Shown one piece after another: positions 4,706 through 47,700 of a stretch of DNA of 64,000 bases. The stretch is from an uncultured Pelagibacteraceae bacterium (GTDB taxonomy: Bacteria > Pseudomonadota > Alphaproteobacteria > Pelagibacterales > Pelagibacteraceae). A program made the translations under genes and the position numbers. The stretch is from contig CACDWM010000005.1 in NCBI GenBank assembly GCA_902556505.1, positions 1 to 64,000 on the forward strand. The letters are read 5' to 3'. Below the pieces are notes generated by a model. It was not told where the DNA came from. It ran no database searches and saw nothing but the letters and a program-made list of their open reading frames with translations. Position 1 is the stretch's first letter. The number at the start of each line of letters is the position of its first letter.

Positions 4706-5821
4706 ATGAATACTGAGAAAAACATAAAAACTTTAATTGTAAAGAAACCACTAAAATTAGACTGTGGAAAGACCATAAAAGATTTTCCGATAGCCTATGA
4801 AACTTACGGTTCACTTAATTCAAAAAAAGATAATGCAATACTAGTTTTTCATGCTCTAACAGGAGATCAATTTGTAACCGGAATAAACCCTGTAACTAAC
4901 AAAGAGGGTTGGTGGAGTTATGCAGTAGGTCCTGATAAGGCTATCGATACGAATAAATATTTTGTTATTTGTTCTAACGTAATTGGTGGATGTATGGGAT
5001 CATATGGTCCAAGTCATAAAGATCCTTATCAAAAAATTTTTGGAACAAATTTTCCCGTTATTACAATTAATGATATGGTGAATGCTCAATATAATTTACT
5101 TGATCATTTTGGTATTGATAAACTATTTTCTATAACTGGTGGTTCAATGGGAGGTATGCAAGTCCTTCAGTTTATTAGTAACTTTCCTGATAAATCTAAA
5201 ACAGTGATACCGATAGCAACCACATCTAGTCATTCAGCACAAAATATTGCTTTTAACGAGCTAGGTAGACAAGCTATTACAGCTGATAGTAACTGGAAAG
5301 ATGGGAACTATACATCAAACGAAACTAATCCTGGAAAAGGATTGGCAGTAGCAAGAATGGCAGCACATATTACTTATTTATCTAAAAAAGGTTTGCAGGA
5401 AAAATTTGGAAGAAAATTACAAGAAAGAGAAGATCTTAAATTTGGATTTGACGCTGATTTTCAAATAGAGAGTTATTTAAGATATCAGGGCTCAGTTTTC
5501 GTGGATAGATTTGATGCAAATAGTTATCTTTATATTACTAGAGCTATGGATTATTTTGATTTAGCTAAGCAATTCAATGGTAATCTTTCGGAAGCATTTA
5601 TAAATACAAACGCGAAATTTTTTATAATTTCTTTTACTTCAGATTGGCTTTATCCAACCCAAGAAAACAAAGATATTGTGATTGCTTTAAACTCAATAGG
5701 AGCCGATGTTGGATTTGTAGAAATTGAGTCAGATAAAGGTCACGACTCCTTTTTACTAGACGTTCCTGATTTCTTGAGTGCACTTAAAAACTTTTTAGAT
5801 AAATCTTACGAAGAAAATTAA
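4706..5821 (+). CDS. metX: Homoserine O-acetyltransferase
   Basis: A 371-residue alpha/beta hydrolase-fold acyltransferase of the MetX family. Motifs: VFHALTGDQF (oxyanion loop), GGCMGSYGPSH, the nucleophile elbow GGSMGG with Ser147, the acid in SDWLYPT, and the histidine in KGHDSFLLD near the C-terminus. It activates homoserine with acetyl-CoA (or succinyl-CoA, which cannot be excluded) for direct sulfhydrylation in methionine synthesis. It is the first gene behind the SAM-II riboswitch; metW follows after 2 bases. Confidence 0.95.
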   Translation: MNTEKNIKTLIVKKPLKLDCGKTIKDFPIAYETYGSLNSKKDNAILVFHALTGDQFVTGINPVTNKEGWWSYAVGPDKAIDTNKYFVICSNVIGGCMGSYGPSHKDPYQKIFGTNFPVITINDMVNAQYNLLDHFGIDKLFSITGGSMGGMQVLQFISNFPDKSKTVIPIATTSSHSAQNIAFNELGRQAITADSNWKDGNYTSNETNPGKGLAVARMAAHITYLSKKGLQEKFGRKLQEREDLKFGFDADFQIESYLRYQGSVFVDRFDANSYLYITRAMDYFDLAKQFNGNLSEAFINTNAKFFIISFTSDWLYPTQENKDIVIALNSIGADVGFVEIESDKGHDSFLLDVPDFLSALKNFLDKSYEEN

Positions 5822-5823
5822 TT

Positions 5824-6420
5824 ATGAAAAATGAATTTCAAGTAATAGCAGATTTAATTGAAAAAGATAAGAAAGTCTTAGATGTAGGTTGTGCCGATGG
5901 AACTTTGATGAAATTTTTAAAGGATAATAAAAACATAAATATAAGAGGATTAGAGATTTCAAAAGAAAAAGTGCAAGAATGTATTGCTAAAGGTTTAACT
6001 GTAATTGAAGGAAATGCTGAAAAAGATTTAAAGCAATTTCCAGACAAATCATTTGATTATGTTGTTTTAAGTCAAACCCTTCAAGCTTTTCTTAATCCTG
6101 AGTTAGTTTTAGATGAACTTTTAAGAGTTGGAAAAAAAGCAATAGTTACGATTCCTAATTTTGGATACTGGAAAGTAAGATTTCATTTATTATTTAAAGG
6201 TACAATGCCAATTACAAAAACACTGCCAGATGAATGGTATAACACTCCAAATTTACACATGTGCACAATCAAAGATTTTTTTCATTTTGTAAAATCAAAA
6301 GATATAAAGATTTTTAAATCACTCGCTTTAAACAATATTAACAAATCAACAATAAATCAGAGTAATTTAGGTATTAAAAATTTGTTTGCAGATCTTGGTA
6401 TATTTTTGATAGAAAAATAA
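5824..6420 (+). CDS. metW: Methionine biosynthesis protein MetW (class I SAM methyltransferase fold)
   Basis: A 198-residue protein with the SAM-binding motif VLDVGCADGTL (residues 18-28), DYVVLSQTLQA, and the MetW hallmark VTIPNFGYWKVR followed by W and HMCTIKDF. MetW is normally adjacent to metX and needed for full MetX function in several proteobacteria; its biochemical activity is not defined. Start ATG lies 2 bases after metX and gloB begins 1 base after its stop, a tight three-gene operon. Confidence 0.92.
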   Translation: MKNEFQVIADLIEKDKKVLDVGCADGTLMKFLKDNKNINIRGLEISKEKVQECIAKGLTVIEGNAEKDLKQFPDKSFDYVVLSQTLQAFLNPELVLDELLRVGKKAIVTIPNFGYWKVRFHLLFKGTMPITKTLPDEWYNTPNLHMCTIKDFFHFVKSKDIKIFKSLALNNINKSTINQSNLGIKNLFADLGIFLIEK

Positions 6421-36067: not shown

Positions 36068-37177
36068 CTAAATAAAAGGTAAATCGCAAACTTTACCACT
36101 ACAAATATCACCATTTATGCTTGCTTTTACCTTCTGGTCTATATTCCAATGCGATTTTTTCATCATAGCAATACCAATTACTTTTTTGAAATGTGGTGAA
36201 TAGCAAGCTGATCTCAATTCTCCAATTATATTATTGTCTTGATCACTTAAGTCTAATGATCCTGTAATACTTATTTTATCTATATCAAGCATTACCCCCA
36301 TTAATTTTTTTTTAATTCCTTCAGATTTAATTTTTTTTAATTTCTCTTTGCCTAAAAAATTAACTTCGCTTTCTATGTTAATATATTTATCAAATCCACA
36401 TTCATATGGATTGTCTCCATTATCGATATCATTTCCATACGATAATAATCCACTTTCAATACGTTCTATTAAATTTGGACAACCTGGTTTGATATTAAAT
36501 TCTTTTCCAATTTCAAAAAGATGATCATATAATTTTAATCCAGAGACATTATGCTCAACATAAATTTCGTAACCACCTTGTTTAGACCAACCAGATCTTG
36601 CAATTAAATGTTTATCACCACCAAATTCGAAATAATCAAAACCAAAGAATTTTAAATTAACTATCTTATCTCCAAAAACTTTTTCCATTAATTCAAATGA
36701 CTTTGGACCTTGTATAGCCATTATATCAACATCAGGTTCAAAAATTTTTACGTCAAATTTATTTCCAATAGCTAGTCCTTTTGCAAATAATATTACATCT
36801 GAGTCAGCAAGAGAAACCCACCATTTATTTTCATTCAATCTAAGTACAACTGGATCATTAATCAGACCTGCGTTATCATCAATTATTGGACAATAATAAC
36901 ATCTTCCATCTTTTGATTTAGATAAATCTCTACAAGTCATCAACTGAACTAATTTCGCTGAGTCTTTACCAGAAATTTCCACCTGTCTTTCAGCAGCTAC
37001 ATCCCAAATTTGAACATACTGTTTTAAGTGATGGTATGAGTCCTCAATTGAACCAAACGCTGCGGGAAGCAACATATGATTATATATTGTATAAGCCGTA
37101 ACCCCTTGTTTTTCTATTCTAGAGGTATAAGGGGTGCCTCTAAGCCTTCTTGATTTTGCAATTGAAAAACTTTTCAT
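36068..37177 (-). CDS. dmdA: Dimethylsulfoniopropionate demethylase
   Basis: A 369-residue protein of the GcvT (aminomethyltransferase) fold that differs from GcvT by DmdA features: [13 protein letters not shown] at the N-terminus, [29 protein letters not shown], the long run [12 protein letters not shown], and [19 protein letters not shown]. DmdA moves a methyl from DMSP to tetrahydrofolate, giving 3-methylmercaptopropionate. The assignment is strengthened by dmdB and dmdC just upstream in the same operon, and by the arrangement that I recall for Pelagibacter. Its ATG overlaps the hydrolase stop by 4 bases. Confidence 0.9.
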
Positions 37178-37950
37178 TTTTTTAAAAATTCTAAGACCTT
37201 GTCTCTCATTTCGAATGCTTTTTCAATCATAATCATATGACCACAACCCTCAATAATATGTGTTGTTGAATTTTTAATGAAACCAGAAAACTTTTTACCT
37301 GACTCTAAATTTACCATTTTGTCTAATGATCCAAATATCAACAAAGAGGGACAGTCTATTGATCTAGCAGCATCAGAACCATTGGTATAATTATTACATG
37401 CAATTAAATCTACTGCTAATATTTCTCTAATATCTCTTGGTGACTGTATTATTCTTTCCACTGGATTACCTCCTATAAATTTTTTTGAACCTTCATAACC
37501 CCACTTCATCATCAATTTAACAGCATCAGTATCTCCATTTTTTGCTAAATCGATTAGATCTGGATGAACTGGCATTCTATTTGAACCACCAATAAAAACT
37601 AATTTTTTTAATCTTTTTTTATATTTGGATGCATATTCAAGTATCTCTAAACATCCTTGAGAGTGCCCAACGATAATTAGTTGTTTTAAATTTAATTTTA
37701 CAAACACTTGTTCTAGCCAATCAGCTATTTTTTCAATACTATCTAAGCAGGGGCCATCTGAATTACCGTGCCCAGGTAAATCTACAGATAATACGTTAAA
37801 ATTATTATTTAAAAAAAACTGTTCAGTTAGAGACCAAACAATATGCGAAAGACCACTTCCATGAAGAAATACTATTGTTTCTTTATTTTTATCAATACCC
37901 TGTCCTGCATCAGAAGCATAAATATTTTTATTTTCCAATTGAAAATTCAA
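37174..37950 (-). CDS. Alpha/beta hydrolase embedded in the dmd operon (function unknown)
   Basis: A 258-residue alpha/beta hydrolase with oxyanion loop [22 protein letters not shown], nucleophile S97 in GHSQG, acid D210 in FGSLDKMV and H238 in GCGHM, a complete catalytic triad. It sits between dmdB and dmdA with overlaps or gaps of at most 8 bases, so it is almost certainly co-expressed with them. The fold covers esterases, thioesterases and C-C hydrolases. A thioesterase or a hydrolase acting on a C3 or CoA thioester of DMSP breakdown is the simplest guess. No dmdD-type crotonase is present in this cluster. Confidence 0.8.
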
Positions 37951-37957
37951 AAATTAC

Positions 37958-39574
37958 CTAAACTTGTTTTCTTAATTCAAACTTTTGTATTTTTCCTGTC
38001 GAAGTTTTTGGCAACTCACAGAAGACAACTTTCTTGGGAACTTTAAATCCTGCTAAAGTTTCTTTACAAAAATCAATTAATTCTTTCTCACTAACTGGTT
38101 TGTCTTTAACTGCTTCGATAAATGCGCATGGCACCTCACCCCATTTTTCGTCTGGTTTTGCTACAACTGCTGCAATCGAAACGGATGGGTGTTTAGATAA
38201 AGTATTTTCAATTTCAATTGAAGAAATATTTTCTCCTCCAGAAATAATTATATCTTTTGATCTATCTTGTATTTTAATATAACCATCAGAATGCATTACA
38301 GCTAAATCACCACTGTGAAACCAGCCATCTTTCATGGCTTTTTCGGTAGCCTCTTTATCTTTGAAATATCCCTTCATTACGACATTTCCTCTAATCATGA
38401 TTTCACCGATTGTCTTTCCATCTCTAGGAACCTCTTTCATTGTCTCAGGGTCTAAAACAACTACACCTTCCGTATTAGGGTACTTCACACCTTGTCTTGC
38501 TTTAATCTCGTTTTGTTTTTCTTCATCAAAATTATTCCATTCATCATTCCAGGCACACTGAGTTACATGACCATAAGTTTCTGTTAAACCATATACATGC
38601 ATTACTTCAAATCCAAGAGCTCTCATTTTTTTAAAAATTATACTTGGTGGAGGAGCACCAGCAGTTAAAACATAAACTTTTTGTTTTAATTTTTTCTTAT
38701 CACTTTCTGGCGCTCCAGTAATCATATTCAATACTATTGGAGCACCACCAAAATGAGTGATTTCATATTTATCAATAAGTTCAAAAATTTTTTTAATATC
38801 TATATTTCTTAAACATATTGTTCTTCCGTTTAGCATCGGCACAGTCCATGGATAACACCAGCCATTGCAATGGAACATTGGAACAACTGTTAAAAAATTT
38901 AATCTATTTGGCATATTCCAAGCAACTGAGCTTCCTGTAGACATTAAATATGCTCCCCTATGATGATAGACAACACCTTTGGGATTTCCTGTAGTACCTG
39001 ATGTATAACTTAGTGATATAGCTTGCCACTCATCTTCAGGCATTTGCCATTGGTAATTTTCATCACCTGTATTTAAAAAACTTTCATATTCTAAATCACC
39101 AATTTTTTCCAATTTTGATTGATCAGCATATTTATCGTTTATGTCAATAATAGTTATTTTTTTATTAAGATTTTTTAATGCTTTTTTTACTTCTCCATGA
39201 AGTTGTCTATCCACAACTAGCACTTTTGCTTCGCTATGATCTAAAATATAGGAAATTGTTTTAGCATCTAGTCTTATATTTATAGTATTAAGAACTGCAC
39301 CAGTCATAGGTACAGAGTAGTGTGCTTCAAAAATCTCTGGTGTATTGAAAGCTAAGAATGAAACTGTGTCACCTTTTTTAATACCTATTTTTGTCAATGC
39401 ACTAGCAAATTTTACAACTCTTTTATAAACTTCAGCCCAGGTATAATTTCTTTCTTCATAAATTATAGCCTCATAATTTGGGTAAATTTCTTTTGCTCTT
39501 TTTAAAAAAGTTAGGGGAGTGAGGGGGACGTGATTTGCTTTATTTTTATCTAAATTTGTTTCGTAATGGCTCAT
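37958..39574 (-). CDS. dmdB: 3-Methylmercaptopropionyl-CoA ligase
   Basis: A 538-residue acyl-CoA synthetase (ANL superfamily) with phosphate loop SYTSGTTGNPKG (189-200), GLTETYGH, HSGDLAVM, and catalytic K528 in TSTGKIQ. Medium-chain fatty-acyl ligases look similar; the dmd context and its pairing with an acyl-CoA dehydrogenase that has the DmdC length point to MMPA as substrate. Overlaps dmdC by one base (start/stop at 39574). Confidence 0.85.
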   Translation of the reverse strand: MSHYETNLDKNKANHVPLTPLTFLKRAKEIYPNYEAIIYEERNYTWAEVYKRVVKFASALTKIGIKKGDTVSFLAFNTPEIFEAHYSVPMTGAVLNTINIRLDAKTISYILDHSEAKVLVVDRQLHGEVKKALKNLNKKITIIDINDKYADQSKLEKIGDLEYESFLNTGDENYQWQMPEDEWQAISLSYTSGTTGNPKGVVYHHRGAYLMSTGSSVAWNMPNRLNFLTVVPMFHCNGWCYPWTVPMLNGRTICLRNIDIKKIFELIDKYEITHFGGAPIVLNMITGAPESDKKKLKQKVYVLTAGAPPPSIIFKKMRALGFEVMHVYGLTETYGHVTQCAWNDEWNNFDEEKQNEIKARQGVKYPNTEGVVVLDPETMKEVPRDGKTIGEIMIRGNVVMKGYFKDKEATEKAMKDGWFHSGDLAVMHSDGYIKIQDRSKDIIISGGENISSIEIENTLSKHPSVSIAAVVAKPDEKWGEVPCAFIEAVKDKPVSEKELIDFCKETLAGFKVPKKVVFCELPKTSTGKIQKFELRKQV

Positions 39575-41337
39575 TAATTAAACTTAAAATTCATTATATT
39601 TGAGCTTCCTGATATTGCTGATTTGTAATGATACTCAGCCCGAGGTAATACCTTATCAAAATAAAATTTAGCTGTATTTATTTTATCACTATAAAATTCT
39701 TTATTTGTGTTAAAATCATTAAAACTAACTTCTAAAATTTTAATCCAAGCATAAGCAATTGAAACATAACCTAAGCTTTTTAAATAATCATTTGCTGCAG
39801 CACTAACATCATCTTTTTCAATTTTATTTTTATCATTTATCCAATCTGTGAATTTGGATAAAATATCTAAATAATGGTTTAATTCTTTAGAAAATGTTTT
39901 TACTTTTTCATTTTTGCTCTCACATTCAGATTTAATCATTTCTAAAAACTTATTTATAACATCGCCATTTTTATTTGATAATTTTCTAAATACTAAATCT
40001 GCAGCCTGTACGGAATTTGTTCCTTCATAAATTGGGGTAATACGATTATCTCGATATAATTGCTCAATACCTTGGTCTTTAGTATATCCGTATCCTCCAT
40101 GTATCTGCATTGCATCGCTAGTTATTTCCATAGCTAAATCTGTAAAAAGTGATTTAACCACAGGCGTCATTAATGAAACGTAATCTAAAGCAGCTTGTTT
40201 AATTTTTTCGTCTGGATGATAAAGACTTACTTCTGTTTGTTGAGAAAGCCAAAAACATAATGCTCTTTCACCCTCAATTATTGATTTCATATTAAGTAAA
40301 GTTCTTCTAATGTCTGCATGATCAATTATAAAATCTGCACCATTATTAGATTTTGAATTATTTGTTTTTCCTTGCTTTCTTTCTTTTGCGTAAGAAAGTG
40401 AATTTTGATAAGCAATTTCAGAAATACCTAAACCTTGAATGCCTACAACTATTCGCTCTAAATTCATCATTGTGAACATTGCGCTAAGACCTTTATCTTT
40501 GTTACCAATCATGTAACCAGTTGCATCATCAAAATTTAAAACACAAGTTGCTGAACCTTTAATACCCATCTTACTCTCAATTGATCCAGTTGAAATTCTA
40601 TTTCTTGGACCAATACTACCATCCTGGTTCACAATATATTTTGGAACTAAAAATAAACTTATTCCCTTAGTACCAGATGGAGAGTCTGGTGATCTTGCCA
40701 AAACTAAGTGAATAATATTTTCGGTTAAATCATGGTCTCCTGAAGTTATAAATATTTTTTGACCGCTGATTTTATAAGTATTATCTGATTGTTTAATTGC
40801 TTTAGTTTTTAACAAGCCAAGGTCGGTACCACAGACTGGTTCTGTTAAACACATTGTACCACTCCACTTACCTTCTACAATTTTTGGTAAATATTTATTT
40901 TTAATTTCATCAGAAGCATGATGATTAATACAATTATAAGCGCCAATACTTAGTTCACTATATAATTTAAATGATAAACTTGCTGAAGATAGCATTTCAT
41001 CAAAAAATGCACTTACTGTTTTTGGCATTCCTTGACCTCCATATTTTGGATCACAAGACAATGAAGTCCAACCATCCTCAATATACTTTTGATACGCTTC
41101 TTTGTAGCCTGGGGGTGTTCTGACAACACCATTTTCTAAAACTGCTGGATTTTCATCTCCTGATTTAGCAAGAGGTAAAATTAAATTTTGATTTATCTTG
41201 GCTGCTTCCTCTAAAATATCTTTAACTAGATCTGAACTAACTTCATTATATTTTTCAAGTTCATTATAATTTTTATTGTCTCTTAATTTTTCAAAGAGAA
41301 ACATCATGTCTTTTACTGGAGCTGTATAACTTGGCAT
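39574..41337 (-). CDS. dmdC: 3-Methylmercaptopropionyl-CoA dehydrogenase
   Basis: A 587-residue acyl-CoA dehydrogenase, clearly longer than the common type (about 380 aa) and matching the DmdC/AidB-like subgroup, with MCLTEPVCGTDLG, GQKIFITSGDHDLTENI, MQIHGGYGYTKDQGIEQLYRD and ITPIYEGTNSVQA. It oxidises MMPA-CoA to methylthioacryloyl-CoA, passing electrons to ETF. First gene of the dmd segment, 26 bases downstream of leuB. Confidence 0.88.
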   Translation of the reverse strand: MPSYTAPVKDMMFLFEKLRDNKNYNELEKYNEVSSDLVKDILEEAAKINQNLILPLAKSGDENPAVLENGVVRTPPGYKEAYQKYIEDGWTSLSCDPKYGGQGMPKTVSAFFDEMLSSASLSFKLYSELSIGAYNCINHHASDEIKNKYLPKIVEGKWSGTMCLTEPVCGTDLGLLKTKAIKQSDNTYKISGQKIFITSGDHDLTENIIHLVLARSPDSPSGTKGISLFLVPKYIVNQDGSIGPRNRISTGSIESKMGIKGSATCVLNFDDATGYMIGNKDKGLSAMFTMMNLERIVVGIQGLGISEIAYQNSLSYAKERKQGKTNNSKSNNGADFIIDHADIRRTLLNMKSIIEGERALCFWLSQQTEVSLYHPDEKIKQAALDYVSLMTPVVKSLFTDLAMEITSDAMQIHGGYGYTKDQGIEQLYRDNRITPIYEGTNSVQAADLVFRKLSNKNGDVINKFLEMIKSECESKNEKVKTFSKELNHYLDILSKFTDWINDKNKIEKDDVSAAANDYLKSLGYVSIAYAWIKILEVSFNDFNTNKEFYSDKINTAKFYFDKVLPRAEYHYKSAISGSSNIMNFKFN

Positions 41338-47592: not shown

Positions 47593-47700
47593 ATTTATTA
47601 CGCATAGCAGTAACGCACTAGTGGGCGAACCCTCGCTGACTAGTGTCGATCTCTTTGTTTCCAAAGACACCGCAAAGTTAATGTTTTTGCGGAAACGGCA
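47593..47700 (-). promoter_or_regulatory. Structured 5' leader of ffh with four serial hairpins (candidate regulatory RNA)
   Basis: Read on the minus strand: hairpin 1 (47692-47670) CCGCAAA/TTTGCGG, 7 bp with a 9-base loop; hairpin 2 (47667-47652) TCTTTG/CAAAGA closed by a GAAA tetraloop; hairpin 3 (47645-47616) CACTAGT/ACTAGTG, 7 bp, with a nested GCGA/TCGC stem; hairpin 4 (47613-47598) TTAC/GTAA, ending six bases before the ffh ATG. Stems are perfect, and one has a GNRA loop, so it looks like a functional RNA rather than a plain spacer. The SRP RNA apical signature is not present, so it is not ffs. Confidence 0.7.

Follow-up and report, generated by a model that had tools for sequence, protein, structure and literature searches.

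A hydrolase gene inside the dmd operon

The window analysed here is a stretch of 64,000 nucleotides from an uncultured Pelagibacteraceae bacterium (contig CACDWM010000005.1), whose genome (G000, 73.6% complete) spans 1.05 Mb over 43 contigs. The window carries dmdA, dmdB and dmdC without dmdD, confirming what an earlier note had read from it, and a gene for an alpha/beta hydrolase lies within this cluster. The relevant features are:

36068..37177, minus strand: dmdA, DMSP demethylase (ORF, NCBIfam)
37174..37950, minus strand: alpha/beta hydrolase, 258 aa, TTG start; assigned to the SAR11 dmd-linked branch of a metY-partner family (ORF, Pfam, tree)
37958..39574, minus strand: dmdB-type acyl-CoA ligase, PRK08162 subfamily (ORF, NCBIfam)
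39574..41337, minus strand: dmdC-type acyl-CoA dehydrogenase (ORF, Pfam domains)
4706..5821, plus strand: metX, homoserine O-acyltransferase (passes the PRK00175 'acetyltransferase' cut-off)
5824..6420, plus strand: presumably a metW-like gene, directly after metX (named by position)

On the minus strand, the gene order is leuC, leuD, leuB, dmdC, dmdB, hydrolase, dmdA, asd, sdhC, sdhD, sdhA, sdhB, with names outside the dmd cluster taken from reading the translations. The hydrolase ORF (37174-37950, stop codon included) is on the minus strand, which the earlier note had not given. The tight coupling described there is borne out: the TTG start lies 7 bp past the dmdB stop, and the hydrolase stop shares 4 bp with the ATG of dmdA. 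An in-frame TAA occurs two codons before the TTG, so the gene has no longer start. At the aligned start of the closest 30 orthologs (L003-L032), with places extrapolated from the alignment, we find TTG in 17, ATT in 6, ATC in 1, other codons in 6 and ATG in none; this gene therefore often has a rare start codon or begins elsewhere.

DmdA scores above the curated NCBIfam DMSP demethylase cut-off (581.6 vs 410 bits). DmdB passes general ligase subfamily models only (PRK08162, 862.1 vs 677 bits; PRK06187, 487.8 vs 476 bits) and scores 343.9 bits where the model for 3-(methylthio)propionyl-CoA ligase requires 822. DmdC has acyl-CoA dehydrogenase domains and matches 19 NCBIfam models, all below their cut-offs. 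Gene order and literature therefore underlie the names of these two proteins. The hydrolase belongs to the alpha/beta hydrolase fold (Abhydrolase_1/6; Abhydrolase_1 at 93.1 bits vs a cut-off of 25.8). It matches 27 NCBIfam models, and none of the 25 listed reaches its cut-off. No crotonase gene is present among the ORFs listed at 30-46 kb of the window. No Rfam riboswitch was detected at the gathering score in the window, dmd operon included; an ffh sRNA is matched at 47608-47660 on the minus strand (56.9 vs 35 bits).

Two genomic homes within SAR11

We searched 150 genomes, the window's own and its relatives, for the hydrolase, DmdA, DmdB, DmdC and MetY. Matches of 37% identity or more were taken as orthologs, those below 35% (paralogs) were left out, and second matches per genome were uncounted. 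A hydrolase ortholog occurs in 75 of the 150 genomes, which form two groups with zero overlap; in none of the 150 is the gene beside both dmdA and metY. The first group contains 46 genomes with orthologs of at least 55% identity, and dmdA is the neighbour in every one of them, a linkage far beyond chance. DmdB is also adjacent in 44; in the other two (G006 and G058) a contig start is no more than 400 bp away on the dmdB side. No PRK08134-type MetY is among the matches found in this group.

The second group consists of 28 SAR11 genomes (40-45% identity) and the non-SAR11 alphaproteobacterium G144 (37%). In all 29, the hydrolase directly follows a PRK08134-type metY (O-acetylhomoserine sulfhydrylase), and this MetY type is found in 29 of the 150 genomes, every one with the hydrolase. 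The count includes 28 matches at 93% identity or above and the G144 match beside the hydrolase, leaving out a second G144 match (56%) and all those at 50% or below. The type was assigned by curated model in G144 and G004 (L037, 781.7 bits; L038, 654.4 bits; cut-off 636), and the other 27 SAR11 sequences are at least 93% identical to the G004 MetY. Where the genomes of this group have dmdA and dmdB on one contig (n=21), the two genes are separated by 14-113 bp in 21 of 21, which leaves no room for the hydrolase between them. Neither dmdA nor dmdB was found in the metY-linked SAR11 genomes G063, G067 and G085 (completeness 91, 77 and 77%), and four genomes with dmdA (G027, G031, G039 and G056; completeness 76-95%) yielded neither the hydrolase nor a PRK08134-type MetY.

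The slot occupied in the second group, for example in G004, reads rpsI, rplM, metY, hydrolase, second metY, ctaA. In the window's genome, where rplM, rpsI and ctaA were named by reading the sequences against the other SAR11 locus, the rplM-ctaA slot holds a single metY with a SAM-V riboswitch ahead of it (L057 1409-1475, 80.1 vs 41 bits) and no hydrolase. This lone MetY is below the PRK08134 cut-off (470.4 vs 636 bits), and a PRK08134-type MetY was not found in this genome. The SAR11 dmd-linked branch has the hydrolase in the dmd operon and has lost its former metY partner. In two genomes (G086, L041 4051-5160; G029, L050 4283-5392), a 369-aa gene replaces the second metY after the hydrolase; it has no confident Pfam match and weak transposase-like hits (E 0.12-0.13).

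The metY partnership outside SAR11

In a scan of named genomes, we kept the best 80 loci, which come from alpha- and betaproteobacteria, together with one titled Gammaproteobacteria and one titled Proteobacteria; 17 are titled Pelagibacteraceae. MetY is encoded upstream on the same strand in 79 of these 80, and the 80th locus begins 19 bases from a contig end. The gap between the two genes is at most 145 bp in 76 of the 79 (756, 1182 and 2091 bp in the rest), and three further MetYs of the scan pass the PRK08134 cut-off (L062, L064 and L071). The partnership is seen in Massilia, Azospirillum and Caballeronia, lineages not known to carry dmdA. No plasmid copies of the hydrolase family were detected at E 1e-25.

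Against the choice bias of named genomes, 240 Alphaproteobacteria were drawn evenly over the class. A PRK08134-type MetY is present in 62, the hydrolase in 68 and both in 60, the pairs spanning 40 family codes (Fisher p 5e-45, with genomes treated as independent of relatedness). The hydrolase is downstream of metY on the same contig and strand in all 60 pairs, within 200 bp in 59 and at 427 bp in one; a weak second hydrolase match in G360 was left unused. Eight genomes have the hydrolase only: G000 and G350 are dmd-linked, contig ends cut the metY side in G207, G214 and G343, G217 (36%, partial) has no MetY within about 4.5 kb, and G176 and G305 carry distant outgroup copies (33-34%) with no MetY within about 7 kb. 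In the two genomes with MetY only (G255 and G367), a contig end lies within about 310 bp on the hydrolase side.

The hydrolase family is thus coupled to PRK08134-type MetY in both Alpha- and Betaproteobacteria. SAR11 has compact genomes, and a move into an operon can serve expression alone, so the gene could be a general housekeeping esterase, a coincidental passenger of well-expressed operons. Given a partnership fixed in 60 of 60 and 79 of 80 loci over two classes, we regard this as extremely improbable. The counts also bear on the earlier proposal that the hydrolase fills the gap left by DmdD, and they argue against it: the regular partner of the family is metY, and dmdA and dmdB stand without the gene in the metY-type SAR11 genomes. 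Co-occurrence with dmd genes holds within this SAR11 branch, where close orthologs adjoin dmdA, but outside it the family tracks metY, so that the association with other DMSP degraders is in part the loose one that the note had named as refuting its idea; roseobacters were not singled out.

Direct coupling to MetY would also suit a homoserine O-acetyltransferase, or an esterase of O-acetylhomoserine that controls how much ester is available to MetY. MetX itself has an alpha/beta-hydrolase fold, and the PRK08775 MetX model gives a weak match to the hydrolase (E 5e-5). However, this match scores 22.4 bits against a cut-off of 296, outside MetX membership, and a full MetX is encoded in the window (4706..5821), so a homoserine-ester enzyme is already present in the genome. 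Its acetyl and succinyl models score alike. Of 41 genomes searched, the window's own and its relatives, 38 gave a near-full-length MetX match (E <1e-130), none of them at the model's 500-bit cut-off. We therefore reject the hydrolase as sole homoserine acyltransferase, and consider the broader idea very unlikely.

No SAM riboswitch was found at the Rfam gathering score in 37 metY-hydrolase loci, nor at a relaxed threshold on L038, so SAM control lends no support to a methionine role.

Of the 60 class-sample loci, 48 were read for other neighbours (G144, seven more, then 40) and 12 are unread. A gene for a 4HBT thioesterase (PF13279) comes immediately after the hydrolase in 17 of the 48 and in 22 of 135 over all loci checked; it is adjacent in only 5 of the 80 best scan loci, some of which are cut by contig ends, and in 0 of 7 SAR11 sources checked alongside them. 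A PIG3-type reductase occurs in the flanks of 23 of the 48 loci and a DUF1013-like gene in 18. For 9 of the 48, the fetched flanks include a gene for a DmdB-type ligase of at least 51% identity. This ligase link may be partly chance, since the DmdB query belongs to a broad PRK08162-type family and only 4 of the 80 best scan loci have such a gene nearby. The order dmdB-metY-hydrolase is found in several alphaproteobacteria (L124, L128, L133, L154 and L156) and possibly connects the gene's two locations.

Phylogeny, conserved residues and predicted fold

In a tree of 42 sequences, the dmd-linked clade (support 100/100) is nested in a clade of 21 (100/100) whose other members are metY-linked SAR11, SAR116 and other marine sequences. 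The rest of the tree is metY-linked, an outgroup pair excepted. Because the tree is rooted at its midpoint, we read its direction from the outgroup pair together with how widely metY linkage occurs. The stem of the dmd-linked clade is long (0.75); unusual letter make-up was flagged in 5 of its 8 sequences, and another sequence, L138, was flagged as long. The topology argues that the dmd-operon copy is a derived branch of the metY-linked family. The window's hydrolase nests within the metY-linked clade without lying directly downstream of a PRK08134-type metY; as it sits in the dmd operon and no PRK08134 MetY was found in its genome, it is a derived and atypical member of this proposed family. 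About nine cap residues are missing from the 6 dmd-linked sequences of the residue alignment (A2), and these differ at positions where all 33 others are identical, for example Arg44 to Gln and Ala55 to Ser.

The full Ser97-Asp210-His238 triad of the earlier note is intact, being identical in 39 of 39 aligned relatives and kept in all 30 closest orthologs read at the DNA level (of 46). Cys185, the aligned counterpart of the AF-Est2 pocket cysteine Cys172, is retained in 37 of 39, and Met212 in 38 of 39. An AlphaFold2 model of the hydrolase has a pLDDT of 94.2, falling to 65-77 in the shortened cap. Its structural matches (Foldseek was also run) are small esterases and lactonases, with Z of 27.8-32.6 in the best 50 rows; many are tied, and they give no hint of substrate.

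PcaD enol-lactonase (2xua), an aryl esterase of P. fluorescens (1va4) and the AHL lactonase Est816 (5egn) resemble the hydrolase in fold and size (Z 29.5-32.6) at 18-22% identity, and the PcaD NCBIfam cut-off is missed (62.6 vs 255.85 bits). Such neighbours would suit a lactonase in damage control, one hydrolysing homocysteine thiolactone or homoserine lactone formed in the vicinity of MetY, MetX and SAM. The partner family makes homocysteine or methionine, and PcaD (Z 32.6), a gamma-lactamase (Z 30.8) and the AHL-degrading Est816 (Z 29.5) are close in structure, but esterases score equally and the common fold shows no substrate. In valacyclovirase/BPHL, an acid after the nucleophile binds the amino group; here that residue is Met, Gln or Leu. 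We consider this role quite unlikely.

The best solved sequence match is AF-Est2 of Archaeoglobus fulgidus (AF1537, PDB 5frd), at E 2.8e-18 with a single sequence and 1e-30 with a profile. The structures align at Z 31.3 and 25% identity, with triad and pocket cysteine in register. According to the accessible parts of its description, AF-Est2 binds CoA and, tried on acetyl- and succinyl-CoA, showed no activity as a thioesterase (PMC4861933). Its CoA-binding residues Arg117, Arg119 and Tyr207 are not conserved in the hydrolase family: the Arg117 column holds Ala in 12, Pro in 12 and Arg in 3 of the 39 relatives, and the Arg119 column holds Pro in 31 of 39, so an AF-Est2-like pair of CoA-groove arginines is absent. 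Lys206 corresponds to Lys or Arg in 33 of 39 relatives and to Glu in the window protein. Unlike the hydrolase family, AF-Est2 has no known metY link.

Candidate hydratases for the DmdD step

DmdD orthologs are absent from Pelagibacter and other enzymes are assumed to act instead, according to the available parts of two studies (PMC5069961, PMC8547437); AcuH can substitute for DmdD, as excerpts of others describe (PMC5651017, PMC10746254, PMC12262181). These methylthioacryloyl-CoA (MTA-CoA) hydratases would act at the step absent from the cluster. In the portions available of two reports, they hydrate the C=C bond with two catalytic glutamates of a crotonase fold (PMC5395565, PMC5651017). The hydrolase has no crotonase (ECH) domain and is not an MTA-CoA hydratase. 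Replacement of DmdD by hydration was rejected on this chemistry, as a Ser-Asp-His hydrolase could at most hydrolyse the thioester, and on the family's distribution.

Six SAR11 genomes were examined for members of the PF00378 crotonase family, other hydratase families being outside the search. The single-contig genomes G012 and G082 (99-100% complete) each encode one full-length crotonase and one FadJ-like protein (744-747 aa), and G350 and G086 carry one further crotonase each (L166 and L167). The common SAR11 crotonase is of the PRK08139/ECHDC3 type (in the window's genome, contig C1, 40704-41480, L001 1474-2253; orthologs L161-L165), and relatives at E 1e-30 or better occur in 116 of the 150 genomes. 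In six of six genomes, it has Gln and Gly where the mitochondrial hydratase has its glutamates (gcQL for gcEL, tPGv for qPEi); DmdD keeps both, in the part of its description that was available (PMC5395565). With both catalytic glutamates missing, the SAR11 crotonase is probably no ordinary enoyl-CoA hydratase. DmdD structures are not among its 60 best PDB matches, which is uninformative alone. The aligned FadJ-like sequences (G000, G012, G004 and G350) have Glu at both places, in weak alignments (E 0.03-0.17). The DmdD gap in SAR11 is therefore real, and the FadJ-like protein, in the window's genome located on contig C3 (L002 79-2301), is a better candidate MTA-CoA hydratase than the hydrolase.

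The hydrolase may then act in DMSP breakdown as an acyl-CoA thioesterase: another enzyme, such as the FadJ-like protein, would hydrate MTA-CoA, methanethiol would leave, and the hydrolase would cleave 3-oxopropionyl-CoA, or trim MMPA-CoA or MTA-CoA, the two jointly replacing DmdD. The invariant dmdA neighbour in the 46 close orthologs is consistent with this, as are the Glu-less crotonase plus FadJ-like protein in G012 and G082; the long branch and lost cap residues are what a changed substrate would lead one to expect. Set against these are the association of the family with metY, the 21 SAR11 genomes with dmdA-dmdB and no gene between, and the unconserved Arg117 and Arg119 of the AF-Est2 groove. 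We judge this reading unlikely; a thioesterase role after hydration may exist, possibly gained only in the SAR11 dmd-linked branch.

Proposed function

We favour, with modest confidence, a serine (thio)esterase of an unnamed, operon-defined family, a partner of PRK08134-type MetY at a methanethiol/homoserine-ester step that was relocated into the dmd operon. MetY (PRK08134; TIGR01326), the fixed genomic partner, is a PLP enzyme and no homolog of the hydrolase. In the available excerpts of one study, a MetY of Rhodospirillum rubrum, Rru_A0774, couples methanethiol (as glutathione adduct) with O-acetylhomoserine (PMC4958253). The hydrolase would act where O-acetylhomoserine encounters a small thiol (sulfide, or methanethiol derived from DMSP), clearing or recycling a small acyl (thio)ester there. 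Ser97 would attack the carbonyl while Asp210 and His238 relay the proton, the thiol or alcohol would exit via a pocket whose expected lining residues are Met126, Cys185 and Met212, and water would then free the acid. In both gene homes, metY and dmd, methanethiol meets acyl-CoA or acyl-adenylates; S-methyl thioesters arising from such attack therefore top the list of candidate substrates, a suggestion that we make tentatively. Homocysteine thiolactone or homoserine lactone, or a CoA thioester, would be others. As the dmd-linked branch has lost the family-defining MetY, its role may have changed.

In the literature searched, we found no description of the metY-hydrolase partnership, and a search on SAR11_0247, which we take to be a locus-tag label, found nothing. 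The accessible parts of PMC4958253 contain nothing on a hydrolase beside metY, and those of PMC5069961 and PMC8547437 nothing on the hydrolase gene. These last two, as far as available, describe Pelagibacter as among the primary marine DMSP consumers and leave its methanethiol-releasing enzyme unidentified.

The earlier note was right to flag the gene and probably wrong about its step; the tie it saw to the use of DMSP sulfur is supported. A hydrolase fixed beside a methanethiol-capture gene, or beside the genes leading to methanethiol, in 40 alphaproteobacterial family codes and in betaproteobacteria points to an unrecognised reaction of methanethiol or methionine metabolism, and suggests a part in capturing DMSP sulfur, not in the missing breakdown step. 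The DmdD question is sharpened as well, as a widespread SAR11 crotonase without catalytic glutamates turns attention to the FadJ-like protein, now a named candidate. It is conceivable, though we think it improbable, that the one-time metY partner was re-purposed in the SAR11 branch (a cap shorter by about nine residues, a long branch) to hydrolyse a CoA thioester of the methanethiol pathway, forming with the FadJ-like hydratase a non-orthologous replacement of DmdD. If true, the two proteins would be the long-sought DmdD replacement in the ocean's most abundant DMSP degraders.
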